A stretch of DNA of 64,000 nucleotides, from assembly GCF_000710775.1 (NCBI RefSeq), contig NZ_JOJP01000001.1, forward strand, positions 649,400-713,399, read 5' to 3'. A model generated the notes under the pieces. That model was not told where the DNA came from. It saw nothing but the letters and a program-made list of their open reading frames with translations, and did no database searches. The stretch comes from Endozoicomonas elysicola. Lineage in GTDB: Bacteria; Pseudomonadota; Gammaproteobacteria; Pseudomonadales; Endozoicomonadaceae. Positions within the stretch are counted from its first letter, which is position 1. The number at the start of each line of letters is the position of its first letter. Shown here piece by piece: positions 10,143 to 59,573 of this stretch. Made by a program: the position numbers and the translations under genes.

Positions 10143-13100
10143 CTAAACGCTGGTGACTGCTCGCTCATGTACTCTAATCTCAGGTATGATATGTGGTTCA
10201 GAGCAGCTTTGTTGAGGAAATGGTTGCTGTGTAATTGCGCTCCCTGGTTTACGTGCATTTAGAATGTGAACTGAGTGTTTTTTGAGTAATTCAGCTTTTT
10301 CGGCTGGATCAACGCTTTGAAGTGGGTGAATAATATGTCCTGCCAGAAAAGCTTCTATATCTTCCTTAGTATATTTTTGCATTAGTTGTTCAAGGTAACC
10401 TATTAGTACTTCAGGGCGGGAGTCATCTTTACCGATAGTCTGGCAAAATTGCTTGAGCTCACTCATTTTCTGCTTGGTCTCTTCTGAGCTAACTGCACCG
10501 AAGGATACAAGATGTTTAGGCATTTCTTCCCTTACTTTGGCAATTACGTCATTAAAAAACTCTACCTCAGTAGCCTTTGTTGCAGATTTTAACCCTTGCT
10601 GTTCTTCTGACAACTGCTGAACCATCGGTAAAACGGTTGACTCTATTCTATTTGCGAGAATTTTTGTTGCTCGATTGAGATTTGGTAAGCCGATTTTTCG
10701 CAGGTGATCAAATTTTGGTCTCAAAATCTCATGGATACTCTCTACGCTGCCTGTACTGGAAATTACAGCTTCTTCCATCATATCCCCGATTGCGTTTCGG
10801 ATGTTTTGTGGACAGTAAAGGCCAATGTTTCCTAATTTGCTGATTGCTAACTCTGCAAGAGGTGAGTCCAGTTTATCCAATAGGCTGAACAGAGTTCTAA
10901 GGGTTTCATCGTCAAGTAGCATTGCATATCTTGCAGCAATACCTGTGCTGTCTTTAATGAGATAGGCAATGAATGCTCCCAGTGCTTCCCAATTGATGCT
11001 TTGGATTCCCATGTCTCGTTCATGTAATGCTGAATTAGTATACATGGACAAGTTAATTAATTCCTTAATACCCCACAGCAACGTTGACTGCTCAACTTTT
11101 TCGCTTGAACGGCCGCCAGAAGTGTAATGGCACAGCAACTCAAGGTCATTCATGTCACGAGGTGTTGTATCATATTTCATGGTTGATCTGGCTTTTTCTG
11201 CCATTTTTTTGATTACGTCAGAGTCTCTACCAAACATGTGTTCGACTGTCTCTGCCAATGTCAGGTCTTCATTAAAAATATTTCCAGCCTTATTCAATAA
11301 TTGTTGCGCCATGCTAATTGGGCTTACTGTATACCAAATCAGGTTCAGTGCTTCCAGAGTGTATATAGCTACCATAGGGGCTATGCCACATACAGTATGC
11401 GTTATACAGCTCCATGCTGTAGATACTTCCTGTTCTAATTGCTGGATGTCAGGATCCGGGCCGAGAATACTATTAATCAATACATCTCCATATGTGTTTC
11501 TCAGCATGGTAATAGCTGCTGAATCAAGTCGTTTCTGGCCTTGTAGGTCATGAAGCGTTGCAGATAATTTAGTCTCCATGCTTCTCAGGGTGAGGTAATC
11601 TGAAATAGATGCTTTTTCATTCAGAGCAATGGGCATGTCCAGTTCTTTGAGAAGAATCAGAAAACCAAGCATGTATGCCTTGGATTTGAAAACATCCATG
11701 AATTCTTTTGCTGTATTATATCCACCCATGCGTAGCAGGGTTCCTCCAATTCGGCTATTGGCGGCACTTGCTAGCCGAGTTAGTAGTTCCTGATAAGAGT
11801 GGGGGCGTTTTTGAAAGGCCATGGATGCAGGTCGTAAAGCAAGAGTCAGCAAATATACTATTGGCCAAACTTTTTTGCCTTTAATTTTGGGGTTTGGGTC
11901 GCAAATCATGAAATCAATGCAGTTTAAAATGCCGTGTTTTAGTTTTTCCAAGCCTGAATAAGCTGTCAACCCAGGATAAATTTCATCTGAATCTTGATTA
12001 TGGATAGTAAATTGTTGTGATGTTTTTAGCATTAGTGTCTCTGTCATTTCGGATGGTAGGCTTTGGAATGCTAGGGGAATGGTTGAATAATGGTTAACGT
12101 CATGAGTGCGGTGATTGACCTCCTGATACCAACCACCTAGGCACGCAGCCAGCCCGGAAGCAATACTGGCAACAGTAGTAATAAGGTTTGCCAGATTGTA
12201 ATTTGCATCAGGAGGAAATTTTTTTAATCCACCGCTAGGGCAGCCGCCTGTATCTGTTTCTCGAAGATGCTGCTGGAGAGCCTGCGACTCTGTTTCCAGT
12301 TGTCTTAGCCCATCTTGCAAACTCATATTGAAGGGGGAATTATTTAGGTTAAACATTCTATCTGAACAGTTGGTAGAGCTAACATTTGAAGAAACGGTGA
12401 AAACTCTATCAGAGTGTCCTAACAGTTCTGGTGACTCCTTGCTTAGTTGATCAACTATATCTTTGATTCCAAATATCAGCGTTGATATTTTATCACTTCT
12501 TCCTTGGATATCTTTGAGTAGTTCTGTTGCTGTACCTGTGAATATCATACTGGTCACTGCACAACCTACAAAGAACCCAGGTAAAAAAGCTTGCTGTTCT
12601 TTCATATAATTCCATGTCTTAAGAGCTAGCTTTCCTAAAGCACCTCTTTTAGAGAATAAGCGTTGAAATTCATGTTGATTGAATAACTCATCAAGTTTCT
12701 CATTAAGTGCTTTTAGTTTTTCCTGGTTATCCTTGTCCTCGCTGAATTTTTTTCCTATTTCTGCTAATTTAGTCATTGACTCGTTTTTGGCAACATCCAT
12801 AACTCGTGAAAAAGTAGTGTCAAGATCTTTCTCTTTAAGATCACTATTCACTCTGTCATTAAAAACAGCATCGGCCATTTGCATGGCCATAGCATCAATG
12901 TGATCATTATATCTGCTCAATGCAAATTGATAGCTTTTATAGTTATCCGGACCACTCGTTGTTGCACCTGATTTTAATCCCGCAGCCATCAGAAGATAGC
13001 GAACTGTTTCTTTGGCTGGAGGTAGGTTCTGGTGTGCTAATTTTGAATCCATGCAATGCTCAAGAGACTGTTGGTATGTTTCAAATACATCGGCAAGCAA

Positions 13101-16100
13101 ATGCCTAACAGCTGCCTCTTCTTGATTTTTTTGATCGATGTTATGTAAAAAAATATCTCGAAAAGGCCTTGTTTTATGCTCGTGAATTGTTATAAGAGTT
13201 TGCCAAGGGGGGGCTGGTTTGCCTGTATCATCCATACCAATGTAGTTTTCTTTAGCAGTGCGGTTAAAATTCTGAAGTATGGAGTTGAAGTTCTCCATTA
13301 ACTCTTCTCTTAATCTAGAAGTTTGATCGCTACTACTCTCTCCCACGATTGCATCAAAAATCTCCAGAAATCTATCCATGGGGTTACAGGTTCCTGAATC
13401 TGTCAGTTTCTGCCTTCTATTAATCATGTTGCTGATTGTGCTATCAACCCTGACTATACGCTCGTCATTGGGGTATTGATCATTTAATTTCAGGCGGGCA
13501 TGCTGTAATGCAATTTGAGTAAGAGATATTAGGGTCTGATGGTCACTGGCATCCATCTTAATTAAATCACACTGCCGGTGGTTCTCTCTTGCCCGCAGAC
13601 TTCTTGTTTCACGAGCTATCTCATTATAAAAGCCATGTGTTGAAAAACCCCTTACAGTATGTTTTAACGCGGAAGTAACTCGTGTCCACCCTCCAACGGA
13701 TGATAAAGCCTGTTCAATCCGTCGGCTATCCCACTCAGAGATTTTTGCTATCCGACTTCTCGACACTTTCCCTGTCTGAGCCTCCCTGAGAATGCCTTGA
13801 ACAAGATCCTGGGGGGCATGTTTTCTTTCAACACAAGCCTTATGAGCCTTGAGTGTTTTGTATATATCAAAAGCTTCATCAAAAGTTATTCCCCCTTTTG
13901 CAGGGAGTAGATTGACTGTGACGTGATTATCATCAGAAGTATTTCCCCCCTGTGTTTTTACTTTCATATCTATATCCTTATAACTTCTGGCGCCTTCTGA
14001 GAGAGAGGTTCGTATATCCAGTTTTCCTGCGACATTGGTGACCATTTCAGTGGCTCTTTCATAGCACTTTCTTTTCGTCCGTACTTCTGCATCAAGCTGT
14101 TCAAGAGTTCCGGCCACCTTTACCATGTATTCCTTTTGATAGTCTTGGAAGTGATTTAAGATGCTCGATTTTGCCTGAAGAAATTCTGATTCCATGATCT
14201 TCAGGTAATCATCAGTAGGACTACTATTGTCAGAAGTGCCCTCAACCTGTGCCAATTGATCAGAAAGCTTATTAGACAAACTGACTACGACTTTTGAAAA
14301 CACAGGGGTAAGCAGGTCTCCAGCTTCTTCTCTGGCGAGCACTTTTGTCACTTCATTATATAAACTGCAGAAGTGCTTCAGTATCTTAAACCTTATATTC
14401 AGTTGTTCCCTGAAGCAGAGGTTTTGCATATGATCTGTAGAAAATCCAAAAATAGAGAGTGTTCGCCTCAAGTCTTTTCGAGCGGTTGCTCTGAGCTCCT
14501 CGTTGCCTTGAATGCCCGGGAATAACAATAACTCAGGGGAAAATTCAGTTAGCATTTCATGAATAAGGCGTTCGAAACCTTCGCATATCGCACGCTCCTG
14601 ATGGCGTGCAGCCTGTCTGAAAATACTTTCTATAGCAGTTGTCTTTTTTTCAGTCTCTTTCTTAATATCAGTCATTATTTCCAACAGTCTGGAATCTATC
14701 ATTTCAAGCTCTTGTGCTGCTTCATGATCAGTTTTTTCGGTTCTTTTTTGAATATCTTTTTTTTTGGTTTCTAAGACTGATTGCTCGGTTTTTAGTTCTT
14801 TGATTCTCTGGTTTGCCTGATCAATTTTTTCTTTTTCATGCCTTCGTTCATCATTGTGTATATCAATTAATTCAGGCAGTCTAAATGCTTCATTTAGTAC
14901 ATGATCGGCGATCATTTTGCGATGAGATGTTTTTAATCCAGAAACTTCTTTCAATACAGAAGTTGGCCTGCCCAATAATTTGTCAAAGAGATCAATTTCT
15001 TTGTAGAATTCAACCTTATCCAAAAGGAGGCCATTGTCTGCCATATGCCGGACTACTTTTCCTGTACACTCCAGTATCTTCTGACGGTAAAATGGTTGAA
15101 GTTGCTCAAATGACTGGTTTTGTCCAGTCATATTGTTGTATACATAAACAAGATAATCACGTACCTTTCCAGAAAACTCATTTATTCGACGTAGAGGTTT
15201 ACTGATTGACTTGTCAGAACTTAAGTGAGTATCCAGTGTATGTAAAAATTTTCTGATATCTCTTTTAGGATTATTTGCTGCTTCATGTATTCTATCGAAT
15301 ACGGTTGAGATGTTTTCACTATTGAGCAGTTTCATTGAACAGCGGTATAATATTTCTGTGCTACAGGTTTCTTTTAGCTCTCGAGCATTAATTCTTAGAA
15401 AATTTTCTAATGTTGCAACGTCTGTTGTTTCTGGGGTAAAGCAGATGATAAGGCTTGCTCTCATCAAGTCTGGAATAAAAGCTTTGAAATCATTTTGAAT
15501 AGTTGTAGATTTAGTATCACTTTTTATGGCTCTAATTTTTTCATAAAGTTCTCTTATAATATCTAACTCAGACGAAATTAGATCTGTCATGTGTAGCTGA
15601 TAGTCGATTTTGTGTTGATATTGTTCGTAATAATCCAGCTTGAACTGAAATGCTCTTAAATGATCGATTATCCATTCTTGAAGTTCAGTACCTCTCAATA
15701 ATGCCTCTGCGGAATCTGTAGGCAGATTATCTGCTTTACTGCCGAATAATATTTCTAGCCCCTCTCTGAGCTGTGGTATTAATAGTTTGCAGATACCTAT
15801 GCTGGCGGCTTTGGGAGATATCTGCAGATCAAAAGACTCCGTTAATGTTATTGTTTCTGGAGTTTTTGCTTTGTGGGATTCTGGGCTACCATCATCAACT
15901 TGGGTAAATGATGAGCATGAATGATAAATCGCTACTGGTAGGTGCAGCATTCTCTCTCCCAGAGATCTTAACCTCTGTTCCGTTGTTGTTGGTCTAGGAA
16001 TATTCAAAGCTTTGAAAGGCTGATCAGAGGAGTGGGTAATTTCTAATCCTAAATCCTGAGTGTGATACACTGCTCCTGCTTCAGATGTCGTTGTAAGCAT
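10143..16100 (-). CDS. Giant orphan protein, 1,985 residues
   Basis: Not recognised. It has no obvious signal peptide and no enzymatic motif I can name. Visible features are a charged coiled coil at about residues 415-510 (ERRHEKEKIDQANQRIKELK and onward) and mostly helical, polar sequence. Hydrophobic stretches at about 1170-1192 and 1298-1320 could span a membrane; another lies near 1567-1590. Its reading frame is intact over 6 kb, with GGAGAG 5 nt before the ATG, so it is maintained. DNA is AT-richer than the neighbouring metabolic genes. It may be grouped with the 206-residue gene 270 bp upstream. A secreted host-interaction protein is one possibility in this genomic company, but nothing in the sequence proves secretion. 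Confidence 0.8.
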   Translation of the reverse strand: MLTTTSEAGAVYHTQDLGLEITHSSDQPFKALNIPRPTTTEQRLRSLGERMLHLPVAIYHSCSSFTQVDDGSPESHKAKTPETITLTESFDLQISPKAASIGICKLLIPQLREGLEILFGSKADNLPTDSAEALLRGTELQEWIIDHLRAFQFKLDYYEQYQHKIDYQLHMTDLISSELDIIRELYEKIRAIKSDTKSTTIQNDFKAFIPDLMRASLIICFTPETTDVATLENFLRINARELKETCSTEILYRCSMKLLNSENISTVFDRIHEAANNPKRDIRKFLHTLDTHLSSDKSISKPLRRINEFSGKVRDYLVYVYNNMTGQNQSFEQLQPFYRQKILECTGKVVRHMADNGLLLDKVEFYKEIDLFDKLLGRPTSVLKEVSGLKTSHRKMIADHVLNEAFRLPELIDIHNDERRHEKEKIDQANQRIKELKTEQSVLETKKKDIQKRTEKTDHEAAQELEMIDSRLLEIMTDIKKETEKKTTAIESIFRQAARHQERAICEGFERLIHEMLTEFSPELLLFPGIQGNEELRATARKDLRRTLSIFGFSTDHMQNLCFREQLNIRFKILKHFCSLYNEVTKVLAREEAGDLLTPVFSKVVVSLSNKLSDQLAQVEGTSDNSSPTDDYLKIMESEFLQAKSSILNHFQDYQKEYMVKVAGTLEQLDAEVRTKRKCYERATEMVTNVAGKLDIRTSLSEGARSYKDIDMKVKTQGGNTSDDNHVTVNLLPAKGGITFDEAFDIYKTLKAHKACVERKHAPQDLVQGILREAQTGKVSRSRIAKISEWDSRRIEQALSSVGGWTRVTSALKHTVRGFSTHGFYNEIARETRSLRARENHRQCDLIKMDASDHQTLISLTQIALQHARLKLNDQYPNDERIVRVDSTISNMINRRQKLTDSGTCNPMDRFLEIFDAIVGESSSDQTSRLREELMENFNSILQNFNRTAKENYIGMDDTGKPAPPWQTLITIHEHKTRPFRDIFLHNIDQKNQEEAAVRHLLADVFETYQQSLEHCMDSKLAHQNLPPAKETVRYLLMAAGLKSGATTSGPDNYKSYQFALSRYNDHIDAMAMQMADAVFNDRVNSDLKEKDLDTTFSRVMDVAKNESMTKLAEIGKKFSEDKDNQEKLKALNEKLDELFNQHEFQRLFSKRGALGKLALKTWNYMKEQQAFLPGFFVGCAVTSMIFTGTATELLKDIQGRSDKISTLIFGIKDIVDQLSKESPELLGHSDRVFTVSSNVSSTNCSDRMFNLNNSPFNMSLQDGLRQLETESQALQQHLRETDTGGCPSGGLKKFPPDANYNLANLITTVASIASGLAACLGGWYQEVNHRTHDVNHYSTIPLAFQSLPSEMTETLMLKTSQQFTIHNQDSDEIYPGLTAYSGLEKLKHGILNCIDFMICDPNPKIKGKKVWPIVYLLTLALRPASMAFQKRPHSYQELLTRLASAANSRIGGTLLRMGGYNTAKEFMDVFKSKAYMLGFLILLKELDMPIALNEKASISDYLTLRSMETKLSATLHDLQGQKRLDSAAITMLRNTYGDVLINSILGPDPDIQQLEQEVSTAWSCITHTVCGIAPMVAIYTLEALNLIWYTVSPISMAQQLLNKAGNIFNEDLTLAETVEHMFGRDSDVIKKMAEKARSTMKYDTTPRDMNDLELLCHYTSGGRSSEKVEQSTLLWGIKELINLSMYTNSALHERDMGIQSINWEALGAFIAYLIKDSTGIAARYAMLLDDETLRTLFSLLDKLDSPLAELAISKLGNIGLYCPQNIRNAIGDMMEEAVISSTGSVESIHEILRPKFDHLRKIGLPNLNRATKILANRIESTVLPMVQQLSEEQQGLKSATKATEVEFFNDVIAKVREEMPKHLVSFGAVSSEETKQKMSELKQFCQTIGKDDSRPEVLIGYLEQLMQKYTKEDIEAFLAGHIIHPLQSVDPAEKAELLKKHSVHILNARKPGSAITQQPFPQQSCSEPHIIPEIRVHERAVTSV

Positions 16101-45573: not shown

Positions 45574-47571
45574 TTAGTCGAGCAGCTCTTCTGCTGCCGC
45601 CACAATGTTCTCAACCGTAAAGCCAAAGTATGGGAACAGGTCTTCAGCAGGTGCTGATTCACCGTAGGTGGTCATGCCAATAATACGGCCATCCAGTCCA
45701 ACATACTTGTACCAGAAATCTGCAGCCGCTGCTTCAATGGCAATGCGTGCAGGTACTTCCAGAGGAAGAACAGACTGCTTGTACTGGGCATCCTGAGCAT
45801 CGAATACATCGGTCGATGGCATAGATACGACACGTACTTTACGTCCCTGTCCAGAGAGCGTTGCTTCGGCGTTCATGGCCAGTTCAACTTCTGAACCGGT
45901 AGCAATCAGAATCAGTTCTGGAGTACCTTCGCAATCTTTCAGAACATAGCCACCACGTTCGACCAGGGCTACCTGCTCATCGGTTCTTGCCATGCATGGC
46001 AGACCCTGACGGGAGAAGATAAGTGCACTTGGACCATCAATGCGTTCAATGGCGTGCTTCCAGGCAACGGCTGATTCAACCGTATCGCATGGGCGCCAGG
46101 CGTTCATGTTTGGTGTCATGCGCAGGCTGGCAATTTGCTCTATAGGCTGGTGGGTTGGACCATCTTCACCCAAGCCGATGGAGTCATGGGTATAAACCAG
46201 AATAGAGCGCTGCTTCATCAGCGCAGCCATACGAACGGCGTTACAGGCGTATTCCATGAAGACCAGGAAGGTTGCACCGTAAGGAATAAAGCCACCGTGT
46301 AGGGCAATACCATTCATCATGGCGGTCATACCGAACTCACGCACACCGTAGAACAGGTAGTTGCCATCAGCATCTTCACGCTTGATGCCCTTGGAGCCAC
46401 TCCAGAGGGTCAGGTTGGAACCGGCCAGATCTGCAGAACCACCCAGCAGTTCAGGAAGCATTGGGCCGTACGCGTTCAAGGTATTCTGGGATGCTTTGCG
46501 GCTGGCGACTTTTTCACCTTCCTGCTGGCAGGATTTGATGTAAGCCGAGGATTTTTCCACAAAGTCAGCGGGCAGATCACCTTTCTGACGACGGGTAAAT
46601 TCAGCAGCGAGTTCAGGGTATTCAGCCTGATAGGCAGCAAATTTCTCGTTCCAGGAAGTTTCTTTTGCTGCACCGGCCTCTTTGGCATTCCACTGACTGT
46701 AGATCTCTGAAGGTACTTCAAAAGAGGCGTAGTTCCAGCCGAGGCGCTCACGGGTCAGCTTGATTTCTTCATCGCCCAGTGGCGCGCCGTGACAGTCTTC
46801 CTTACCTTCCTTATTCGGTGAGCCAAAGCCAATGATGGTCTTGCAGCAGATCAGAGTTGGCTTATCTTTTTCTGCACGAGCGGATTCAATAGCCGCTTTG
46901 ATGGCTTCAGCATCGTGACCATCAACAGCAGGAATTACGTGCCAGTTATAAGCTTCAAAACGCTTGACGGTATCGTCGGTGAACCAGCCTTCCACTTCAC
47001 CGTCAATGGAGATGCCGTTGTCATCGTAAAATGCGATCAGCTTACCCAGCCCCAAAGTTCCGGCCAGTGAGCATACTTCGTGGGAGATCCCTTCCATCAT
47101 GCAGCCATCACCCATGAATGCATAGGTATAGTGGTCAACGATATCATGGCCAGGCTTGTTAAACTGGGCTGCCAGCGCTTTCTCTGCAGCGGCCATGCCT
47201 ACTGCGTTAGCGATACCCTGACCCAGAGGACCGGTAGTGGTTTCAATGCCTGGTGCATAGCCGTACTCGGGGTGACCTGCGGTTTTTGAGTGTAGCTGAC
47301 GGAAGTTTTTCAGGTCCTCAATGCTTAAATCGTACCCAGTCAGGTGCAGCAAAGAGTAGATCAGCATGGAGCCGTGGCCATTGGACAGAATAAACCGGTC
47401 ACGATCGACCCACTCGGGATTGGTGGGGTTATGGTTCATGTAGTCGCGCCAAAGCACTTCAGCAATATCCGCCATACCCATTGGGGCGCCGGGGTGACCG
47501 GACTTGGCTTTTTGTACGGCGTCCATGCTGAGGGCGCGGATGGCATTGGCAAGCTCACGACGTGAGGACAT
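45574..47571 (-). CDS. tkt: Transketolase
   Basis: A full-length (665-residue) transketolase of the non-oxidative pentose phosphate pathway. It shows [37 protein letters not shown], the TPP-binding [46 protein letters not shown], the pyrimidine-domain [18 protein letters not shown], and the phosphate-binding [18 protein letters not shown]. It would normally lead an epd-pgk group; three accessory genes now intervene. Confidence 0.97.
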
Positions 47572-47967
47572 GGGAATTAGTGCTCCTGGGGATCTCAGGA
47601 GGTTGACAGAGAATAGACTGCCCTACGCGGCAACAGCTCCTGCGTTGCTCTAGCTCCTGCATCCATGCAGTCGTGCGACAATAGCAAGTTGGCATAAAAG
47701 TTTGCTTTTATTTGTCAAATAGCGCGCTATTCTCCTCATAAAATCAAATTTTTATTCTCAGCTTTCTGTTGTCCTCGCTACGGGCGCTATTCTCAGCCAA
47801 TCTCCCGATCTGTTTAAATTCGTGCGCTATTTTAAAGCCTTCACGCACAAACTTAAAACAATATGCACAGTTACGTTCCATACTTTAAATATTGGTAGGA
47901 TAATCAAGCGATTATGGGGAGTAATTGATAGCCAGTTTTTAAGTGGCAATACATCGTGACTCGGGGC
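47572..47967. promoter_or_regulatory. tkt upstream region with repeats
   Basis: This 396-bp gap holds the tkt promoter and unusual repeats. The word GCGCTAT occurs at 47724, 47784 and 47824, spaced 60 and 40 bp, the first inside a perfect palindrome AATAGCGCGCTATT (47718-47731). The block 47602-47630 (GAGAATAGACTGCCCTACGCGG core) and the 21-bp block 47776-47796 (CGCTACGGGCGCTATTCTCA core) recur on the far side of the nucleotide translocase gene at 49441-49470 and 49574-49594. Confidence 0.55.
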
Positions 47968-49404
47968 TCATAGGTCCGTTCGTGCATGATAGTGTCTGCC
48001 TAGCTTCTTAATGGCTACTAGCCAGAGTGCTATTGCCAGGATGAAAGCACCTGCCAGCCAGGACATTGCAAGGCTGAGTGAGCCAAAAAGAGCGATGAGT
48101 ATTTGCTGAAAAAATGAGCTTCCGGATTTTCCTACACGGCTGACCACAAGCTCAATAGCTGCCTTTCCTTTGTATTTTCGTTCAGCATCGAGGGGGACAA
48201 AGGTAATCTCCTTGGTGGCATCAAAGAGCGTATATTTTGCGGACTTGCCGAGGGCGTGGCAGTACATGCCAATCTGCAGACCAATCATGGGTAGGTCAAT
48301 ACAGCATAGGCCCATGAAATTGATCTGGGTTTTCTGAAACATCGCCAGAAGAAAAAAGGGAAGGGCTGTTGCTGTCAAAATGACGGGGGTTGCAAAGGCT
48401 GCAGCCCACCAACTGATATTTAACAGGGTTGGCGTTAGCAGCCCGCATAGCAGGCTACCAATACCGTTAATCAGCGCCACTTTCCCCATGAACATCGAGT
48501 AATCCGCCTCACTGGGATACTGTTCAACCAGCTGGCTCTTCCATGCCAATTCGACCATATTAATTGCGACGCAGTATGCCAACATCACCAGGGCGATACT
48601 GGCAAGATAGGGGCATCGAAAAAGATACCGGGCGCTGGCCATGAGTGGCAGGTTGGTGGTGGTCTGATTTTGAGAGAGAGATTCGGTTATTTTTTCCGGG
48701 GTTAATCGATAGCAGTACTCATTGAGTAACAAGATCAACAGACCAAAAATCACGAAAAGTAATGACAGTATTTTCAGGCTCTCCTGCCATCCGGAACCTG
48801 GGGTAGTGACTTCTCTTGAAACACAGTAGTAAAGTAAAGGGCCTGAAATAATGGATGCACTGCTTCCGATCATGGTGATCAGGGGATACTGTCGTGTAGC
48901 GCTTTGAGTATTATGAAAATCATTAACGGCCGTCCAGAAAAGAATGCAGATCACCGCTGACCCCCAAAGCTCGGCCAATGCAAAAAAAAGGGTGAGTGGC
49001 CAGTAGTAGAGCATGCCAACAATAAACTGGAGGTGTTCCGGAATCAGTGGAGAGAGTAAATCAAGCGCAGACGTAGGGGCGAATGCTTCAAGGTTTGGGT
49101 AAATGACAATGGAAAACAGCGGCATCCAAATAAGAAAAGGAATTATCGCTACAATAAAGAGTGTTCTTTTGCTCAGTCTATTGGCAAGAAAGCTGTATGA
49201 AATTAAAAATACAAAAGCGACAGGCATAACAACACACAGTTTGATAAAAGGAATAACTTCCGCACCAAGCCGGGTAATTAACAGGGACTCTTTCAGGTTC
49301 CAGAGTATGTCAAAGTTAAAAATACAGCAGGACATCATGGCAATTTGCAGATAAAGCATTGAGTTTGAATTGCCAGCAACATCCTTGGAAAACATTTTAG
49401 TCAT
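47968..49404 (-). CDS. ATP/ADP (nucleotide) translocase, Npt/Tlc family
   Basis: A 478-residue membrane protein with about 12 hydrophobic segments, belonging to the nucleotide transporter family of Chlamydiae, Rickettsiae and plastids. Diagnostic stretches are LWNLKESLLITRLGAEVIPF, the AELWGS helix, INMVELAWKSQLVEQYPS followed by DYSMFMGKV, and KYTLFDATKEITFVPLDAE followed by KGKAAIE and RVGKSGSS. The charged residues usually needed for adenylate exchange (K38, E145, E285 and the KGK lysines) are all kept. In obligate intracellular bacteria such carriers import host ATP or nucleotides. The ATG at 49404 was chosen because GGAAAG lies 9 nt upstream; one at 49437 lacks a ribosome site. It lies alone between tkt and the metK group, bracketed by repeated blocks. 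Whether it exchanges ATP/ADP or imports nucleotides with protons cannot be told from sequence. Confidence 0.93.
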   Translation of the reverse strand: MTKMFSKDVAGNSNSMLYLQIAMMSCCIFNFDILWNLKESLLITRLGAEVIPFIKLCVVMPVAFVFLISYSFLANRLSKRTLFIVAIIPFLIWMPLFSIVIYPNLEAFAPTSALDLLSPLIPEHLQFIVGMLYYWPLTLFFALAELWGSAVICILFWTAVNDFHNTQSATRQYPLITMIGSSASIISGPLLYYCVSREVTTPGSGWQESLKILSLLFVIFGLLILLLNEYCYRLTPEKITESLSQNQTTTNLPLMASARYLFRCPYLASIALVMLAYCVAINMVELAWKSQLVEQYPSEADYSMFMGKVALINGIGSLLCGLLTPTLLNISWWAAAFATPVILTATALPFFLLAMFQKTQINFMGLCCIDLPMIGLQIGMYCHALGKSAKYTLFDATKEITFVPLDAERKYKGKAAIELVVSRVGKSGSSFFQQILIALFGSLSLAMSWLAGAFILAIALWLVAIKKLGRHYHARTDL

Positions 49405-49961
49405 ATACAGCTTACTTTCCTTCCTCCCGCTCAGCATGAGGCTGACCGAGAATAGAATACCCTACTGCGGTGGCAGCAAATTGGTCTAAAAGTTCCGTTT
49501 TGCTCGGCAAAAAAATTGAACCGCAATTGCACCTTGCAAAACAGAGCTTTTATCCTCAACTTACTGCCATCCCCGCTACGGGCGCTATTCTCAGACAGCC
49601 TCCTGGCTGCTAATAATCTACCGGATCTTTCTGACCACTACTGGAAGAAGTCAGGTTTAAGACTGTTTCTATGCTGTATAAGCGAAAGCATTAGTCTCTA
49701 TCGCAGAAAATCAGTAAATAAGTTCGACAGGCTGCTAGGTCCCCATTTTGGGCAGGTTACTTTATAGGCCTGAGAGCGCAGCATAAATATAGTGCAGAGA
49801 ATGAGTTTCTTGTGTCTACTGATTGTATATAAAAATATTTTGATATAGGTTTTGGGTCTTGCTAAACTTCATCGTCAGAATACCCAAGTAAATGAGTCAG
49901 TGATGTCTTTTTGAGATAAAGGGCGCAGGCGGGTACGAAATGATGGAAAGGATGTCGTGCG
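49405..49961. promoter_or_regulatory. Translocase/regulator divergent region
   Basis: This 557-bp gap between the leftward translocase and the rightward ArsR-methyltransferase gene contains the second copies of the tkt-side repeat blocks (49441-49470 and 49574-49594) and the promoter and operator of the regulator gene (49825-49868). No supported gene; a 83-codon frame at 49516-49767 shows no protein-like features. Confidence 0.5.
49825..49868 (+). promoter_or_regulatory. Promoter and candidate SahR operator
   Basis: An imperfect palindrome GTATATAA-N8-TTGATATAG (49825-49848) overlaps a -35 box TTGATA (49840-49845). This is followed after 17 bp by a -10 box TAAACT (49863-49868). The palindrome is 20/24 identical to one overlapping the ahcY -35 box. 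It is a candidate autoregulatory site for the ArsR-methyltransferase regulator just downstream. Confidence 0.65.
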
Positions 49962-50930
49962 TTGATTGAGGCTTTCGAGCAGCTGGCTATGGTGACTAAG
50001 GCCAGTGGTGATGTTCTAAGGTTACAGATCCTCCGGGTCTTAAGTACTGAGTCCCTTGGGGTGCTGGAGCTAAGTGGCGTCTTTCAAATGCGCCAGCCAG
50101 CAATGAGTCACCATTTGAAAGTATTGTCTCAAGCCGGGTTGGTTTCTACTCGTAAAGAGGGGAACACGGTTTTCTATCGACGTGCTCTGCCGCCTTCTGG
50201 TGGCGATGTAGAAGGACTGGAATGGATTGTGCGCTCAGTGTTTCAGGCCGTGGATATCTTGCCGCTGCCTGATGCGCAGTCAGAACGGTTACAAACCATT
50301 CGTCAGCAGCGATCAGAGCTCTCTCAAGCTTTCTTTGCCCGAAATACTGAAGAGTTTCGTCAGCACCAGGAATTGATAGCTGAGCACCAGCTTTATGCCG
50401 AAACGGTATCAGATCTCATTGCAGCGACGACATTTCCTGCGCTTGACCTTGCGCTTGAGCTTGGGCCCGGGGAGGGTGATTTTCTTGAGGCACTCTCTTC
50501 GGTTTTCCAATCGGTTTATGCCGTGGATAACTCAGAAAAAATGTTGAGTTATTCCCGTAAGCGAGCTGACCAGCAAGGGCTGGACAATATTAAGTTTACT
50601 CACGGTGAAATTCAGGCTCTGAGTGAAATGTCTGGAGAATTTGACTGTGTGGTTGCAAATATGGTTCTGCACCACGTACCCAGCCCGGCAGATATTTTCC
50701 ACTACGCTTCAGCGTTGTTGAAACCCGGCGGTAGCCTGTTTATTAGTGAGCTTAGTCACCATGATCAGGACTGGGTGAGAGACTCTTGTGGCGACCTGTG
50801 GCTGGGTTTTAATGCCGAAGAACTGACGCAGTGGGCAGATAAAGCAGGGCTGATCAATGGTGAATCCCAGTATCTGGGATTACGGAATGGTTTTCAGATC
50901 CAGGTCAGGCGCTTCTTTCTTCCTGAATGA
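49962..50930 (+). CDS. sahR: ArsR-type regulator with methyltransferase domain (SahR-like)
   Basis: A 322-residue fusion: an ArsR-type winged helix-turn-helix (about 8-75; LRLQILRVLSTESLGVLELS, QPAMSHHLKVLSQAGLVSTR) and a class I SAM-binding methyltransferase-like domain (about 145-285; DLALELGPGEGDFLEALS, NMVLHHVPSPADIFHYASAL, LKPGGSLFISEL). This layout is that of SahR, which controls methionine-cycle genes and responds to S-adenosylhomocysteine; the call is supported by metK 107 bp downstream and ahcY close by with a matching operator. The start is a TTG with GGAAAGGATG 8 nt upstream; no ATG is available in frame before codon 10. A real methyltransferase activity is not expected but not excluded. 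Confidence 0.82.
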   Translation: MIEAFEQLAMVTKASGDVLRLQILRVLSTESLGVLELSGVFQMRQPAMSHHLKVLSQAGLVSTRKEGNTVFYRRALPPSGGDVEGLEWIVRSVFQAVDILPLPDAQSERLQTIRQQRSELSQAFFARNTEEFRQHQELIAEHQLYAETVSDLIAATTFPALDLALELGPGEGDFLEALSSVFQSVYAVDNSEKMLSYSRKRADQQGLDNIKFTHGEIQALSEMSGEFDCVVANMVLHHVPSPADIFHYASALLKPGGSLFISELSHHDQDWVRDSCGDLWLGFNAEELTQWADKAGLINGESQYLGLRNGFQIQVRRFFLPE

Positions 50931-50966
50931 TTGATGACCTGGATTTTTGCCGTCGCACTTTATGTT

Positions 50967-50995
50967 CAACGCTCCCTTTTGTTTGGAGAGCGTTG
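50967..50995 (+). terminator. Hairpin between sahR and metK
   Basis: CAACGCTC and GAGCGTTG form an 8-bp stem with a 13-nt T-rich loop, 43 bp before the metK start. No U run follows, so it may be a weak attenuator or processing site between the two genes. Confidence 0.4.
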
Positions 50996-51037
50996 TGGTA
51001 AGTGTACGGAGTTAATTTTTAAGAGGATTATACGGCT

Positions 51038-52201
51038 ATGTCCGAGTATTCACTGTTTACATCCGAGTCTGTATCAGAAGGTCATCCAGACAAAATTGCT
51101 GACCAGATTTCTGATGCCATTCTTGATGCCATTATTAAGGATGATCCAGATGCACGTGTTGCAGTAGAAACCATGGTGAAAACCGGCATGGTTGTTGTTG
51201 CTGGTGAAGTGCGCACCTCAACTTATGTTGATATTGAAGAGTTGGTTCGCAATGTGGTTATTAACATCGGTTATAATCACGGTGATCTTGGCTTTGATGG
51301 GGAATGCGTTGCTGTTCTGAATGCGATCGGTAAGCAGTCCCCGGACATTGCTGTTGGTGTTGATGAAACAGATGAGCGTGAGCAGGGGGCTGGTGATCAG
51401 GGACTAATGTTTGGTTATGCTACAAACGAAACTCCCGTTCTGATGCCTGCACCTATCTACTACTCCCATGAACTGGTTAAGCGTCAGGCGCAGCTGCGTA
51501 AGAATGGTGTTCTGCCCTGGTTGCGTCCAGATGCCAAAAGTCAGGTGACCATGCGCTATGACCAGAATGGCAAAGTTCAGAGTGTAGATGCTGTCGTTCT
51601 TTCTACCCAGCACTCTCCAGAAGTTTCACTGGAAGAGATTCGTCATGAAGTGCTTGAGCAGATTATCAAGCCAGTTTTCCCTGAAGGCTGGCTTCATGAA
51701 GAAACCAAGTTCCATATCAACCCGACCGGGATCTTTGTTATTGGTGGACCTGTTGGAGACTGTGGTCTGACTGGACGTAAGATTATTGTTGATACTTACG
51801 GCGGTATGGCTCGTCACGGCGGTGGTGCTTTCTCCGGTAAAGATCCTTCTAAAGTTGACCGCTCTGCAGCCTATGCCGGACGTTATGTTGCCAAAAATAT
51901 TGTTGCAGCGGGGCTGGCTGATCGTTGTGAGATCCAGATTTCCTATGCAATTGGCGTATCTGAGCCCACCTCTATCTCTATCAATACTTTTGGTACTGGC
52001 AAGGTTTCAGATGAGCGCGTGGCAGAGCTGGTCCGTGAGTACTTTGATTTGCGAGCGGGCGGTCTGGTGAAAATGCTGGATCTTAAACGCCCCATCTACC
52101 AAGCAACGGCTGCTTATGGTCACTTTGGACGTGAAGAGGCTGAATTTACCTGGGAGCGGACAGATAAGGCAGAGCAGCTTCGTAAGGCTGCAGGGCTTTA
52201 A
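51038..52201 (+). CDS. metK: S-adenosylmethionine synthetase
   Basis: A 387-residue methionine adenosyltransferase, intact. It has [21 protein letters not shown], the [18 protein letters not shown] loop, [51 protein letters not shown] and a C-terminal [22 protein letters not shown] precedes the ATG. It makes the SAM used by cellular methylation and is the first enzyme of the SAM-cycle group here. Confidence 0.97.
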
Positions 52202-52326
52202 TCAGTCCTGATTCAGGGGGCCGCAAAGAACTGTCTGTACTTTGTTGCCTCCTGTTCAGGCCAGCTGCCATAATTTGTCAGATTTTTGAAACTTTCATCC
52301 AGCTCATCTTGTATCATTTTTGAAAT

Positions 52327-53772
52327 TCATGATGTAAATGGGGATACAAGGTTAGGGGAGTCATAAGTATGGACATAACGCTTTAACGTTTTTGGTAAAG
52401 GGAGTTCATCTATACTGAGCTGCAGCCCCTGTTTCGTTTTCTCTCTGTTATCCATAAGATTTTTTCGTACGGTTGAGGCACAAATCAATTTTAATGGTCG
52501 GAGGTTTTGAAGGCTTCTTGCGTTTGCTGAGGCAGGCAGATTTGAAATTTGTAGATTATGTAGAGAAATGCTGAGTTTCTCTGAGCCTGGGTGAACCCCT
52601 ATGAGGAGAAGCTCGTCAACAACTCTGACCATCTCATGCCTGCATGCGTGGTGTAGAGCCTCTGATCCATTTTTCGATTTTTCCTCAGATTTAAGGTCAA
52701 GTTCAACGCCGGACGCCAGAAGCGTTAGAGCTATCTCTTCATGATTCGAACTGGTGGCCTCATCGAGGGGGGAGCGTTGATAAGCAAACAGGTTTGGATT
52801 GACTCCCCTGTTCAACAACTCATTAACGACTTTGACCATCCCATGCCTGCATGCGTAGTGTAGAGCCTCTGATCCATTTTTCGATTTTTCCTCAGATTTA
52901 AGGTCAAGTTCAAGGCTGGACACCAGAAGCGTTAGAGCTATCTCTTCATGATTCGAACTGGTGGCCTCATCGAGGGGAGAACGTTGATAAGCGAACAAGT
53001 TTGGATTGACTCCCCTGTTCAACAACTCATTAACGACTTTGGCCATCCCATGCCTGCATGCGTGGTGTAGAGCCTCTGATCCATTTTTCGATTTTTCCTC
53101 AGATTTAAGGTCAAGTTTAAGGCCGGACACCAGAAGCGTTAGAGCTATCTTTTCATGATTCGAACTGGTGGCCTCATCGAGGGGAGAACGTTGATAAGCG
53201 AGCAGGTTTGGATTGACTCCCCTATTCAACAGCTCATTAACGACTTTGGCCATCCCATACCTGCATGCGTAGTGTAGAGCCTCTGATCCATTTTTCGATT
53301 TTTCTTCAGATTTAAGGTCAAGTGCAACGCCGGACGCCAGAAGCGTTAGAGCTATCTCTTCATGATTCGAGCTGGTGGCTTCATCGAGGGGTGAACGTTG
53401 ATTAGCGAACAGGTTTGGTTTGACGCCCCTGTTCAACAGCTCATTAACGACTTTAGCCATCCCATACCTGCATGCGTAGAGTAGTTCCTTTGATTCATTT
53501 TCCCATTCTTCCCGAGAGCCTGAAGGCAAGATCTTTTTATTATATTCACTTAATTTTTTAGGTGCTCCTGCCTGACCTGTCTGATGAATTGGCTCTGTCA
53601 TTACTGCTTTGCCACGAGCAGGTAATAGTTTCTGTTCATCTGTAGTAATGGCGACTTGTAAGTTATGAAAGCAGCTTTCAATGGGTAACGGTTGGCTGGG
53701 CTCTATATCATTATTAGGCTCACCAGAGCCTATTACTGATTGGGCTGACTTGATCGGGGTTGTTGTGTCCAT
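52327..53772 (-). CDS. Ankyrin-repeat protein
   Basis: A 481-residue protein. Residues 1-95 are polar and probably disordered. Residues about 96-395 are ankyrin repeats arranged as 69-residue double units: ALHYACRYGMAKVVNELLNR-GVNPN, then RSPLDEATSSNHEEIALTLL, then a DLKSEEKSKNGSE spacer. The C-terminal 90 residues are unrelated (LHNLQISNLPASANARSLQN). Ankyrin proteins bind other proteins and in host-associated bacteria are often secreted effectors, but no secretion signal is evident. There is no good Shine-Dalgarno before the ATG. It interrupts the SAM-cycle genes between metK and ahcY, on the opposite strand. Confidence 0.85.
   Translation of the reverse strand: MDTTTPIKSAQSVIGSGEPNNDIEPSQPLPIESCFHNLQVAITTDEQKLLPARGKAVMTEPIHQTGQAGAPKKLSEYNKKILPSGSREEWENESKELLYACRYGMAKVVNELLNRGVKPNLFANQRSPLDEATSSNHEEIALTLLASGVALDLKSEEKSKNGSEALHYACRYGMAKVVNELLNRGVNPNLLAYQRSPLDEATSSNHEKIALTLLVSGLKLDLKSEEKSKNGSEALHHACRHGMAKVVNELLNRGVNPNLFAYQRSPLDEATSSNHEEIALTLLVSSLELDLKSEEKSKNGSEALHYACRHGMVKVVNELLNRGVNPNLFAYQRSPLDEATSSNHEEIALTLLASGVELDLKSEEKSKNGSEALHHACRHEMVRVVDELLLIGVHPGSEKLSISLHNLQISNLPASANARSLQNLRPLKLICASTVRKNLMDNREKTKQGLQLSIDELPLPKTLKRYVHTYDSPNLVSPFTS
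52620..53500. repeat. 207-bp tandem repeats inside the ankyrin gene
   Basis: The same 14-bp word (CATGCCTGCATGCG or CATACCTGCATGCG) recurs at 52635, 52842, 53049, 53256 and 53463, exactly 207 bp apart, and the intervening DNA is nearly identical. The unit encodes one 69-residue double ankyrin. Such repeats readily gain or lose units by recombination. Confidence 0.9.
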
Positions 53773-53836
53773 AACTTTATCGATTATTTTTAGAAATTCT
53801 TACTTTTAGTACCATTAATCTGCAATAAAGTTCCTT

Positions 53837-53883
53837 AATCTATATCAAAATTTATTGATATAGATTATTGCCGCTGCTAGACT
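53837..53883 (+). promoter_or_regulatory. ahcY promoter with palindromic operator
   Basis: A perfect 12-bp inverted repeat AATCTATATCAA-N6-TTGATATAGATT (53837-53866) overlaps the -35 box TTGATA (53855-53860). The -10 box TAGACT follows at 53878-53883 after a 17-bp spacer. The layout matches the promoter of the ArsR-methyltransferase regulator gene, so repression by that protein is likely. The leader to the ahcY ATG is only about 35 nt, too short for a riboswitch. Confidence 0.72.
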
Positions 53884-53923
53884 TTACAGTAATTCGGATA
53901 ATACGCAGAGTGGGATACAGTTT

Positions 53924-55339
53924 ATGAGTGCTAACCCTGATTTAACTGCTGAATTTCAAGGATCTACTGAGGTACAGGACTACCGGGTGGCTGATATTTC
54001 TCTCGCGGACTGGGGAAGAAGCGAGATTCAGATTGCTGAGGGTGAAATGCCCGCATTGATGGCAATTCGGGCTAAATACCGTGATCAGCAGCCTCTGAAA
54101 GGTTCGAAAATCATGGGCTGTATCCATATGACCATTCAGACTGCTGTGTTAATTGAGACTCTGGTAGAGCTTGGGGCTGAAGTACGCTGGTCTTCCTGCA
54201 ATATTTTCTCCACTCAGGATCATGCAGCTGCTGCAATTGCTGCAGCGGGTATTCCGGTATTTGCCTGGAAGGGTGAAACAGAAGAAGAGTTCTGGTGGTG
54301 CATTGAACAGACTATTTTGGATGGTGCTGGCAAGCCTTGGCATGCCAACATGGTGTTGGATGACGGAGGTGACCTGACACTGCTGCTACATGACAAGTAT
54401 CCTGAACTGTTGGATAACATTCATGGTATTTCTGAAGAAACCACCACAGGTGTTCATCGCCTGCTTGAAATGCTGGAAAAAGGAACGCTTAAGGTACCGG
54501 CTATCAACGTGAATGATGCGGTCACTAAAAGTAAAAATGACAATAAATACGGTTGTCGTCACTCGCTGAACGATGCGATCAAGCGGGCCACTGACCATTT
54601 ACTGGCAGGTAAAAAAGCGTTGGTTATCGGCTATGGTGATGTAGGCAAGGGTTCTGCTGCATCCCTCCGTCAGGAAGGTATGATTGTTAAAGTGACAGAA
54701 GTTGACCCTATCTGTGCCATGCAGGCTTGTATGGACGGTTTTGAGGTCGTTTCACCCTTTATCAATGGCGCGAATGATGGAACAGAAGCCTGTATTAACA
54801 AGGCACTCCTGACTACCACTGATCTCCTGGTCACGACGACGGGTAATGTGCATGTCTGCGACCGCAACATGCTTAAAGCACTGAAAAATGCTTGTGTCGT
54901 TTGTAATATTGGCCACTTTGATACTGAAATTGATACTCAGTTCATGCGGGAAAACTGGGAATGGGAAGAAGTTAAGCCTCAGGTACACAAAATTGTCCGA
55001 GATGCGTCATCCAACGATCACTTGATTCTTCTCTCTGAGGGGCGCCTAGTTAACCTTGGTAACGCTACAGGACACCCGTCGCGTATTATGGACGGCTCTT
55101 TTGCCAACCAGGTGCTGGCTCAGATCCATCTTTATGAAGCCCGGTTTGCGGATCTGCCCGCTGAGCAGAAAACTGAAAATCTGGCGGTAACATTGTTGCC
55201 GAAGAAGCTGGATGAAGAAGTTGCAGCTTACATGGTGGAAGGCTTTGGTGGTGTCATCACCCGCCTGACTCAGGATCAGGCTGACTACATCAATGTGCCT
55301 GTTGACGGCCCATTCAAAAATAACGATTACAAATATTAA
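53924..55339 (+). CDS. ahcY: S-adenosylhomocysteine hydrolase
   Basis: A 471-residue NAD-dependent enzyme that splits S-adenosylhomocysteine into adenosine and homocysteine. Visible are [61 protein letters not shown], the NAD-binding [27 protein letters not shown], and C-terminal PFKNNDYKY. The length is that of the bacterial long form with an insertion. It recycles the product of SAM-dependent methylation and is followed closely by metF. Confidence 0.97.
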
Positions 55340-55396
55340 AGGCTGTGCTGGCTGGTGTTTCCTCATCAGCCAGTCTCCTTTCTGCTGGTGAACACC

Positions 55397-56257
55397 ATGG
55401 CAAATACAATAATCAATAACACCCCTATCAGCTTTGAGTTTTTCCCCACTAAAACTGAAGATGGAGCCCGAAAGCTGGAGCTGAGTGCTCTCAGCCTTGC
55501 TAAGTACCAGCCGGAGTTCTTTTCAGTCACTTATGGTGCTGGTGGTTCAACGCGGGATCGAACTCTTGAAACAGTACTATCCACCCAGAACCAGACCCTT
55601 ATAGCTACGGCTCCACACCTTTCGTGCGTCGGTGACTCCCGAGAGCAGATTAAAGAACTACTGAATTTTTATCGTACTCAGGGTGTAAAGCGCATCGTTG
55701 CCCTGAGGGGGGACCTGCCATCTGGAATGGGGCGTGACAGCGGTGAGCTGCGTTATGCGAATGAGCTGGTTGAGTTTATTCGCGCGGAAACCAATGATCA
55801 CTTCCATATTGAGGTCGCTGCCTATCCTGAGGTTCATCCGCAGGCTCCGAATATGGAAAAGGATCTGGAAAATTTCAAACGTAAAGTAGATGCGGGTGCA
55901 GACTCGGCGATTACCCAGTACTTTTTTAATGCGGACAGCTATTTTTACTTCCTCGAACGTACCCGCGCGTTTGGAATTGACGTTCCTGTTATCCCGGGCA
56001 TTATGCCGATTACCAATTACACTCGGCTTGCCCGGTTTTCTGATGCTTGTGGTGCTGAGATTCCACGGTGGATTCGTAAGCAGCTGGAAGCCTATGGTGA
56101 TGACATCACCAGTATTAAAAAGTTTGGTGAAGAGGTGGTAACTCAGCTTTGTGAAAAACTGTTGGAAGGCGGGGCTCCCGGCTTGCATTTCTACACACTT
56201 AACCAGGCTACACCCTGTCAGGGCATCTGCGATAACCTGGGTATTTCTGTTTCCTGA
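55397..56257 (+). CDS. metF: Methylenetetrahydrofolate reductase
   Basis: A 286-residue TIM-barrel flavoprotein making 5-methyl-THF for methionine synthesis. It has ISFEFFPTKTEDGARKLE, FFSVTYGAGGSTRDRT, HLSCVGDSREQIKELL, VKRIVALRGDLPSG, KVDAGADSAITQYFFNADSY and PVIPGIMPITNYTRLARFSDACGAEIP. The ATG at 55397 (MANTIINN) is chosen over an upstream GTG at 55355 because it aligns with the family start. It is 57 bp behind ahcY, presumably the same transcript. Confidence 0.96.
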   Translation: MANTIINNTPISFEFFPTKTEDGARKLELSALSLAKYQPEFFSVTYGAGGSTRDRTLETVLSTQNQTLIATAPHLSCVGDSREQIKELLNFYRTQGVKRIVALRGDLPSGMGRDSGELRYANELVEFIRAETNDHFHIEVAAYPEVHPQAPNMEKDLENFKRKVDAGADSAITQYFFNADSYFYFLERTRAFGIDVPVIPGIMPITNYTRLARFSDACGAEIPRWIRKQLEAYGDDITSIKKFGEEVVTQLCEKLLEGGAPGLHFYTLNQATPCQGICDNLGISVS

Positions 56258-57863: not shown

Positions 57864-57944
57864 ATGGGTTTTCGGTTTTAGACGATGGAACTATAAAAAT
57901 GAAATACAGTCCAAGTTGGCTTAATATGATACTTGGAATTGATA

Positions 57945-59573
57945 ATGCCAGAAGTTGGAGGAACATCGTCATCAGTTGTTGGGAAAATATTATCAAAATT
58001 TGAAGAAGATATTTTAGACCACATAGATACCTATCCTAGGTGGAGTGCAATTGATGGACGCTGCTATTTTGTTGATGGTCTTTCAATGGAAGGTCGGCGT
58101 AAATTCATTCCTGAATGTATTTTAGAGGATTTTAAATGCCTCGATAAATTTTCAATAAGAGCATTTGACTGCCACTCATCAAAAGAGTTGATTCATAATT
58201 CCAAACACTTTTTTGATCGTAAATTTAAGACTATTGGTCCTGAAGATAGTATTACCCTGCAGAATGATGATAAGTGTGAAGCCTTTATTGTTGGTGGCGA
58301 TAGTAAGAATAATAGTGCTGAATTATTTGTCGCTGTTAATGATAGGGACCAAATGGTGGCTGGAAAGAAAATGATCCTGACTAACTCTAGTAAGAAAAGT
58401 GTTTTACCCTTTGCCAAGGAAAAGGGAGTAAGTTTTGAAAGTCGCCTGAAAGGAAAAAATATTTGGCTGAAACCCTCAGAGTCAGTTCTATTAGAGTTTG
58501 AGATAGAAAGAGATAGAAGAGTGTGGAAGGAGGTAGGAAAGAGCATATCTCACAATGTTTTTTTCGATGCTAACCCGCTGGCTCGGCAGTCAGGTCCGGT
58601 GCTCCAATATGTGGAAAACGGGAAGAGTCAGGGAGTTAACTATGAATTCGATGGCGAGTTATTTCTTCCTCTGAATGTTATTAATAGGTTATTACAGAGT
58701 AGGGTTGATGCAAGTAATGGATCATTTTCCCGGTTCGCTTTTACCAGCAGTGATGCGGAAATTAAGGAATTCCTTGAAGTTGCAAAGACTGAGTTGAAAG
58801 AGAGAGAAGCATCTGTGGCCAAGAAGGAATTTATGCTTCGATGTATAGTTTATGAGCACTTGCCAGAGCATCATACTTTGGCTGTTGCTTTCTATATTAA
58901 AGCGGACAAAGTGTATTGCTATATCCATGAGACGTTAGGGTGCAAAAGTAATCTGGGCAGGAAAATACGAAGTAAACTATTACAAACTATTCAATCCTGT
59001 TTCTCTGGTTATTCAATTATTTGCCTCATACCAAAAGAAGCGATGCAAAAGGATTTTAGTGTTTGTGGCGTTTTTGCTATTAAATTCATAAAATATATCT
59101 GCAAAAATCCTGAGGAATGGATCTCCTTGATGGAAGAGCAGGGTGTTCCGGAAAAGCAGTTAGAAACTAGACCCATTCAGGTAGAGATGTTACCTGCTGA
59201 TTTATTAAAAATGTGCCAAGATGAAAAGCTTGCCTCACAAAAACAGAAAAGTTATCCGGTAGTGGGTAAAAAAAGAGGGGCAAGAACTCTTGAACAATAT
59301 TGGGCTGCATATTCTGGTAGGAATCAAAGGGGCTCAAAAAGTTGTGCAGCTCTGGTGAAGTTGTGTAAATATTATTCTGAGTATATTGATCTTAAAAAGA
59401 AGGCTGAAAAAAGAAAAGTTAAGGCAGCGGGTTGTACCCAAACTTTTGTATCAAGAACTTCTGAAAAAAGGAGCTTGAGAGAATATGATAATAGTTTGTA
59501 TCAACCAGGACCTAAAAAGGAAAAAATCCGGGATGCCCTTACTGGTCGAACTATATATGTGGAAAAAAGTTGA
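57945..59573 (+). CDS. YopJ-like (C55) putative effector
   Basis: A 542-residue protein. The N-terminal half is not recognised. The region from about 300 to 390 shows a CE-clan triad laid out as in YopJ acetyltransferases: H310 (EHHTLAVAFYI), E329 (YCYIHETLG, 19 residues later as between His109 and Glu128 of YopJ), then Q368 six residues before C374 (QKDFSVCGVFAIKFIK, 64 after the His; 63 in YopJ). A lysine/arginine-rich tail follows (430-542), with KKRGAR, KKAEKRKVK and GPKKEK, possibly nuclear-targeting or inositol-phosphate-binding. YopJ proteins are type III effectors that acetylate host kinases. An alternative is a Ulp1-like deubiquitinase of the same clan. The ATG at 57945 is preferred to a TTG at 57933. 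DNA is AT-rich. Confidence 0.7.
   Translation: MPEVGGTSSSVVGKILSKFEEDILDHIDTYPRWSAIDGRCYFVDGLSMEGRRKFIPECILEDFKCLDKFSIRAFDCHSSKELIHNSKHFFDRKFKTIGPEDSITLQNDDKCEAFIVGGDSKNNSAELFVAVNDRDQMVAGKKMILTNSSKKSVLPFAKEKGVSFESRLKGKNIWLKPSESVLLEFEIERDRRVWKEVGKSISHNVFFDANPLARQSGPVLQYVENGKSQGVNYEFDGELFLPLNVINRLLQSRVDASNGSFSRFAFTSSDAEIKEFLEVAKTELKEREASVAKKEFMLRCIVYEHLPEHHTLAVAFYIKADKVYCYIHETLGCKSNLGRKIRSKLLQTIQSCFSGYSIICLIPKEAMQKDFSVCGVFAIKFIKYICKNPEEWISLMEEQGVPEKQLETRPIQVEMLPADLLKMCQDEKLASQKQKSYPVVGKKRGARTLEQYWAAYSGRNQRGSKSCAALVKLCKYYSEYIDLKKKAEKRKVKAAGCTQTFVSRTSEKRSLREYDNSLYQPGPKKEKIRDALTGRTIYVEKS

Follow-up and report, generated by a model that had tools for sequence, protein, structure and literature searches.

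A TLC/NTT-family carrier of Endozoicomonas elysicola from a second lineage with possibly diverged specificity or coupling

We analysed a 64,000-nucleotide stretch of the Endozoicomonas elysicola genome (RefSeq assembly GCF_000710775.1, contig NZ_JOJP01000001.1, positions 649,400 to 713,399 of the forward strand; hereafter the window), in which an earlier note, made from the letters alone, had reported an ATP/ADP translocase. Carriers of this family (TLC/NTT) are used by parasites to take ATP from host cells. Judged from its open reading frame (ORF) and profile match, the gene is an intact, conserved TLC/NTT-family carrier; it belongs to a lineage that we refer to as class B, and lies between a transketolase gene and a divergently oriented gene for a SahR-like regulator, followed by genes of the S-adenosylmethionine (SAM) cycle. 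Genomes and loci are given G and L codes where they have to be told apart, and the features of the locus are as follows.

47968..49404, minus strand: class B TLC/NTT-family nucleotide carrier (PF03219, phylogeny, AlphaFold2 model, start codon comparison)
45574..47571, minus strand: transketolase, downstream neighbour of the carrier (TIGR00232, 1039.7 bits)
49826..49847, no strand: SahR-operator-like palindrome with one mismatch, overlapping the -35 hexamer of a promoter-like site facing the SahR-like gene
49962..50930, plus strand: SahR-like regulator, divergent neighbour, with ArsR helix-turn-helix and methyltransferase domains (PF01022, PF08241)
51038..52201, plus strand: metK, S-adenosylmethionine synthetase (TIGR01034, 619.6 bits)
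52327-53772, minus strand: ankyrin-repeat protein gene, separating metK from ahcY within the SAM-cycle cluster
53924..55339, plus strand: ahcY, adenosylhomocysteinase (TIGR00936, 531 bits)
55355..56257, plus strand: metF-like methylenetetrahydrofolate reductase (PF02219, 301.2 bits)

The carrier ORF is uninterrupted (47968-49437, minus strand; 489 aa counted from the longest start), and its match to the Pfam TLC profile PF03219 (392.8 bits against a cut-off of 21, E 3.3e-117, profile positions 30-491 of 491) is, as profile scores go, far above chance level, so that the family assignment in the earlier note was right, as probably was its start at 49404. The longer start at 49437 is a less likely alternative, because its Met is replaced by Leu in the 97%-identical G008 copy and because it borders a 31-nt repeat with a second copy at 47596-47626; of nine further class B copies compared, three have the MTK start at 49404 as well. 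The closest copy of the carrier, 97% identical, sits in an Endozoicomonas cretensis record, and we take the genome of the sharpsnout seabream pathogen to be that of this species. A passage of PMC4671022 gives that pathogen genome 95.8% average nucleotide identity to E. elysicola. Direct repeat copies flank the carrier gene at 47596-47805 and 49435-49603 (56-nt and 31-nt segments, 82% and 84% identical, in the same order), and a 121-base query from the upstream copy matches the genome at 18 places, its own included, nine of which (again counting its own) are at least 90 bases long; the repeat may be a small mobile or REP-like (repetitive extragenic palindromic) element.

Among solved sequences, those nearest to the window carrier are the Arabidopsis exchanger AtNTT1 and Chlamydia pneumoniae NTT1 (E about 1e-80). 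An AlphaFold2 model made from a 50-row alignment of family members (pLDDT 87.7) superimposes on ADP/Pi-bound AtNTT1 (9j3m) with a TM score of 0.86 and a root-mean-square deviation of 2.7 (E 3e-23); the five top structure matches are all AtNTT1 or C. pneumoniae NTT1, with MelB next and much weaker (TM 0.56, E 5e-7). The carrier is thus predicted to have the major-facilitator fold of the solved NTT1 structures. Compared with the window gene, the G008 copy has a dN/dS ratio of 0.118 and five other class B copies have ratios of 0.037-0.056, dS being computable in six of 13 class B comparisons (the other seven are saturated) and lying near saturation, at 1.6-2.1, in five of those six; by this measure class B is under purifying selection.

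The same genome (5,606,375 bases in two contigs, with the window on the 5,569,560-base contig; code G000) holds a second TLC gene at C1:4520777-4522243, which scores 688 bits and belongs to what we call class A. In our survey of 37 Endozoicomonadaceae genomes, class A is defined by scores of at least 630 bits, and class B spans 374-418 bits. The class A carrier of this genome is 53% identical to C. pneumoniae NTT1 and 54% to the Arabidopsis exchanger, whereas the window carrier shares 34% identity with each of these and 32% with its own class A counterpart. The NCBIfam NTP/NDP exchange transporter model TIGR00769 separates the two likewise: class A scores 660.3 bits and the window carrier 350.7, under the cut-off of 387.2, which among six other class B rows only L020 exceeds (390.7); a small-genome NTT from outside class B (L043) also falls under it, at 342.2. 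The close relative of the ATP/ADP exchangers in this genome is therefore the class A copy and not the window gene. Contamination or misassembly is ruled out, as both TLC genes are on the 5.57-Mb contig and class B occurs in 16 genomes, seven of them of one to three contigs. The class A gene is flanked on one side, by eye, by an acyl-CoA dehydrogenase, carboxylase, enoyl-CoA hydratase and lyase run (L121 7965-9473, minus strand).

The 14 class B rows of a 62-row tree, all from Endozoicomonadaceae, form a closed clade on a stem of 1.78 changes per column. The anchors are two PDB chains (AtNTT1 and C. pneumoniae NTT1, the sole characterised rows) and one rickettsial plasmid gene. When 12 distant NTTs of other Gammaproteobacteria, which share weak PF03219 matches, are added as outgroup, the 42 canonical rows are united at 100/100, apart from the distant ones, with the class B clade among them at 100/100, on a stem of 1.42 and as one of several branches at an unresolved fork. 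Class B may accordingly sit at the base of, or within, the canonical NTT group, to judge from these trees. Class A, being defined by score, forms several branches, some near C. pneumoniae NTT1, and no single supported clade. The phylogeny that had been proposed as a check, run here with few anchors, thus places the carrier on the canonical side, but in a long-stem clade of its own. Within class B the copy of G032 groups with those of G029 and G012 and not with those of G033 and G034, which share its genus code (99 and 100/99), so descent has not been strictly vertical, and we rejected that model.

The charged residues of AtNTT1 that have been studied by mutation are K155, E245, E385 and K527 (parts of PMC3306366 and PMC10654386), of which K155 has been implicated in binding ADP, K527 in binding ATP and E245 in translocation (PMC3306366, in part). 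These correspond to K66, E156, E296 and K437 of the window carrier (numbered from 49437), and are conserved in 14/14 class B rows of one alignment and 16/16 of another; AtNTT1 numbers were taken as chain number plus 84, by fitting the four published residues (K, E, E and K in the chain). The earlier note had all hallmark motifs and charged residues intact, which holds for these four charges but goes too far for the motifs. At 14 columns that are at least 90% conserved in the 48 rows outside class B, the commonest class B residue is another one, although three of these columns precede the AtNTT1 fragment and some class B rows hold the usual residue in some of them. They include the position of AtNTT1 R133, which is W in all nine genus copies and R in the other seven class B rows; the position of G530 is S in 16/16. 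Conversely, the charges at D43, R56, D173 and E310 are invariant in the 14 class B rows and not conserved outside (D173 is D in 10 of the 48 other rows as well). None of these class B-specific changes has, to our knowledge, a measured effect.

Class A is present in 20 of the 37 family genomes, class B in 16 (14 placed by tree and two by protein search), both in eight and neither in nine; G001 has an additional, unclassified 65-residue TLC fragment at a contig end. Class B was not seen beyond the family in samples of the class (368 genomes), phylum (397) and order (390), where the first three or four candidates per genome were scored; the assignment is by tree for the rows placed there and by score alone for G876, and the G075 fragments on C731 are in no tree. 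Canonical-type NTTs were found in eight of the class genomes, three of the phylum genomes and one further genome of the order sample (G876, 661 bits, class A by score). Ten of these 12 genomes are of 1.0-1.9 Mb, the others being G075 (3.1 Mb) and G876 (3.7 Mb). None of the remaining PF03219 matches from beyond Endozoicomonadaceae exceeds 64 bits; such weak matches agree with the diversity of NTTs described in a part of PMC5381601. Median genome size within the family is 5.75 Mb for class B (n=16), 4.05 Mb for class A only (n=12) and 4.8 Mb for neither (n=9); class B and class A-only genomes differ by a Mann-Whitney test (p 0.024) that ignores kinship and uses rounded sizes, with several genomes fragmented. 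On the same rounded sizes class B is confined to family genomes of at least 4.5 Mb, class A occurring in large genomes too, and the ten genomes below 4.5 Mb comprise seven with class A only and three with neither. Two of the smaller genomes carry several class A copies, five in G014 (2.8 Mb; two near-adjacent) and three in G019 (3.2 Mb). A record named Salinisphaera sp. G21_0 (L033, NZ_JAGHQW010000018.1) has class B in a window-like gene order at 80-96% protein identity and is probably misnamed. We also considered a phage or plasmid origin and rejected it, there being no match in phages or, in a scan for close relatives only, in viral contigs; the single plasmid match is a rickettsial carrier, 30% identical. 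A distant blastn search of E. coli genomes gave no match to the carrier, and in the literature searched we found no account of Endozoicomonas TLC genes.

We lean towards the view that class B is a functional carrier whose specificity or coupling has diverged, with a nucleotide or nucleotide-like cargo. It would be an inner-membrane carrier working by alternating access within a major-facilitator fold, and would represent a second lineage of the canonical NTT group, diverged but long retained, whose specificity or coupling is probably unlike that of the class A ATP/ADP exchanger. The deviating columns, the class B-invariant charges and the replacement of G530 by S suggest something other than a plain ATP/ADP role. 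Further carriers beside an exchanger are described for chlamydiae, as net importers and an NAD carrier (Npt2Ct; PamNTT2, 3, 4 and 5), a likeness by description only, and a table in PMC6995639 sets exchangers and symporters side by side in chlamydiae and diatoms. By this analogy class B would most likely serve net or broader nucleotide uptake while host nucleotides are available, supplementing the bacterium's own synthesis. Of known systems, C. pneumoniae NTT1 (9j3n/9j3o) and AtNTT1 (9j3j/9j3l/9j3m) resemble it in family, fold and the four key charged residues, but differ in overall identity, at G530 and, for the genus copies, at R133, and lie outside its long-stem clade; Endozoicomonadaceae class A shares its bacterial family and accompanies it in eight genomes, but the class A carrier of this genome is much the closer to the exchangers. 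A bolder proposal makes class B an NTT subfamily not yet described, one that arose from the carriers of energy parasites and was retooled in facultative animal symbionts for cargo other than ATP/ADP, which may include net purine nucleotide, NAD or SAM uptake; we regard it as tentative and rather doubtful.

The main rival of the favoured reading, which we consider rather unlikely, agrees with the earlier note: class B would be a plain exchanger of ATP and ADP that duplicates the function of class A and serves energy uptake inside host cells. Several points weaken the favoured reading. The four mutagenised residues, retained throughout class B, would if anything speak for normal use of ATP and ADP; the branching order near class B among the canonical rows lacks resolution, and both trees came with long-branch warnings; class B and the family's class A as one clade are disfavoured but not rejected (approximately unbiased test, p-AU 0.064); and eight of the 16 class B genomes have no class A, so that class B is more than an accompaniment to an exchanger and may in those genomes be the exchanger. 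The retained residues, the class B-only genomes, the modelled fit to ADP/Pi-bound AtNTT1 and the small size of most outside-family genomes with canonical-type NTTs are consistent with the rival. Against it stand the identity of class B to the exchangers (34% versus 53-54% for class A), the sub-threshold TIGR00769 score, the deviating columns and class B-specific charges, and the intranuclear members of the family that are reported to lack TLC carriers (part of PMC11521996). The label ATP/ADP translocase given by the earlier note is therefore not secured for the window gene, since the class A copy is nearer to the exchangers and since, in a passage of the review PMC6995639, NTT transport properties are held not to be predictable by sequence similarity; membership of the NTT family stands.

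That class B transports no nucleotide and is retained for some other solute appears improbable. Its dispensability would fit: a decayed C-terminal class B remnant lies at the transketolase/SahR-like junction of G031 (L159 2988-3168), matched by six of nine queries (one at E 1e-8, five at about 1e-4) and by neither one class B query, both class A queries nor reversed controls, so class B has been lost at least once at this site. The four invariant charged residues are linked to nucleotide transport, however, and the model matches the fold of nucleotide-bound structures.

The neighbourhood raises a further reading, that class B serves the adjoining SAM cycle, for example by transport of S-adenosylmethionine, S-adenosylhomocysteine or adenosine, under control of the SahR-like regulator. 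The SAM-cycle genes reported beside the carrier are indeed there (metK, ahcY, metF and the regulator gene), whereas the full glycolysis claimed with them reduces, among the neighbours examined, to pgk-like, GAPDH/E4PDH-like and transketolase genes. Parts of PMC4239095 describe SahR, its 20-bp palindrome and its core targets for a group that includes Oceanospirillales, and the window regulator is a candidate SahR by domain make-up, neighbours and motif. In 14 of the 16 class B genomes the carrier has transketolase on one side and, on the other, the SahR-like regulator with the sahR-like/metK block (some with extra ORFs between); a SahR-like gene is found in 16/16 class B genomes versus 10/18 searched genomes that lack class B, and an operator-like site lies in the shared intergenic region. 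An exact match to the SahR pattern occurs upstream of ahcY (53841-53862), with three poorer matches elsewhere in the window, and sites at the regulator and ahcY recur in eight of ten scanned loci besides the window. A fusion of an NTT with a SAM methyltransferase has been published for Emiliania huxleyi, with a caution from the authors that it may be an annotation error (PMC5381601, in part).

The window site nevertheless covers the regulator's promoter-like site and not one directed at class B, and a conserved site at class B's own promoter was not found. The operator-like site is about 3 kb from class B in G032 (L120), and no site occurs in the strips of G012 and G029 (L115, L116), where class B is placed away from the transketolase/sahR site; the link is weakened, since the site does not travel with class B. 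Transketolase is also present in eight of the 12 strips that bear sahR but have no class B there, and in G022 a gap of 230 bp, containing no ORF of 110 aa, separates transketolase from sahR, so that the neighbourhood of class B can simply be inherited. A role in the SAM cycle is on this evidence very unlikely. Promoter and terminator scans gave chance-level counts only (4 versus 3.8 and 3 versus 2.5), and there is no Rfam match within 47500-54000. Elsewhere in the window are a 1985-aa ORF in a low-GC stretch (10143-16100, minus strand; GC 0.35-0.41) and, at 57933-59573 (plus strand), a weak Pfam YopJ-acetyltransferase match below cut-off (19.3 versus 24.4 bits).

The carrier had also been taken to imply an intracellular or intranuclear phase, a conclusion that does not follow. 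NTTs are broadly distributed in host-associated and free-living bacteria, in a set that includes 45 gammaproteobacterial sequences (part of PMC5381601), and the passages of PMC11521996 on the intranuclear parasites Ca. Endonucleobacter, of the same family, report them without TLC carriers; together with the nine family genomes that have no match, these argue that the carrier alone implies no intranuclear phase. The genome, at 5.6 Mb and with purH and carB (one marker each for purine and pyrimidine synthesis), is not that of an obligate intracellular energy parasite, and E. elysicola has been classed as free-living by insertion-sequence and pseudogene content (PMC4781883, in part). A link to hosts is plausible, since canonical-type NTTs go with small genomes in other Proteobacteria, and so a host-associated role of the carrier is plausible but not proved. 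Many corals, sponges and molluscs have Endozoicomonas as a dominant part of their bacteria; it has been observed within cells in some hosts, and its mode of interaction is described in part of PMC4132622 as unclear. The finding of the earlier note was thus a good lead under too firm a label, and the Endozoicomonas case cautions against taking any TLC gene as proof of intracellular life; the two carrier lineages, class A and class B, are testable genes for nucleotide exchange with hosts.
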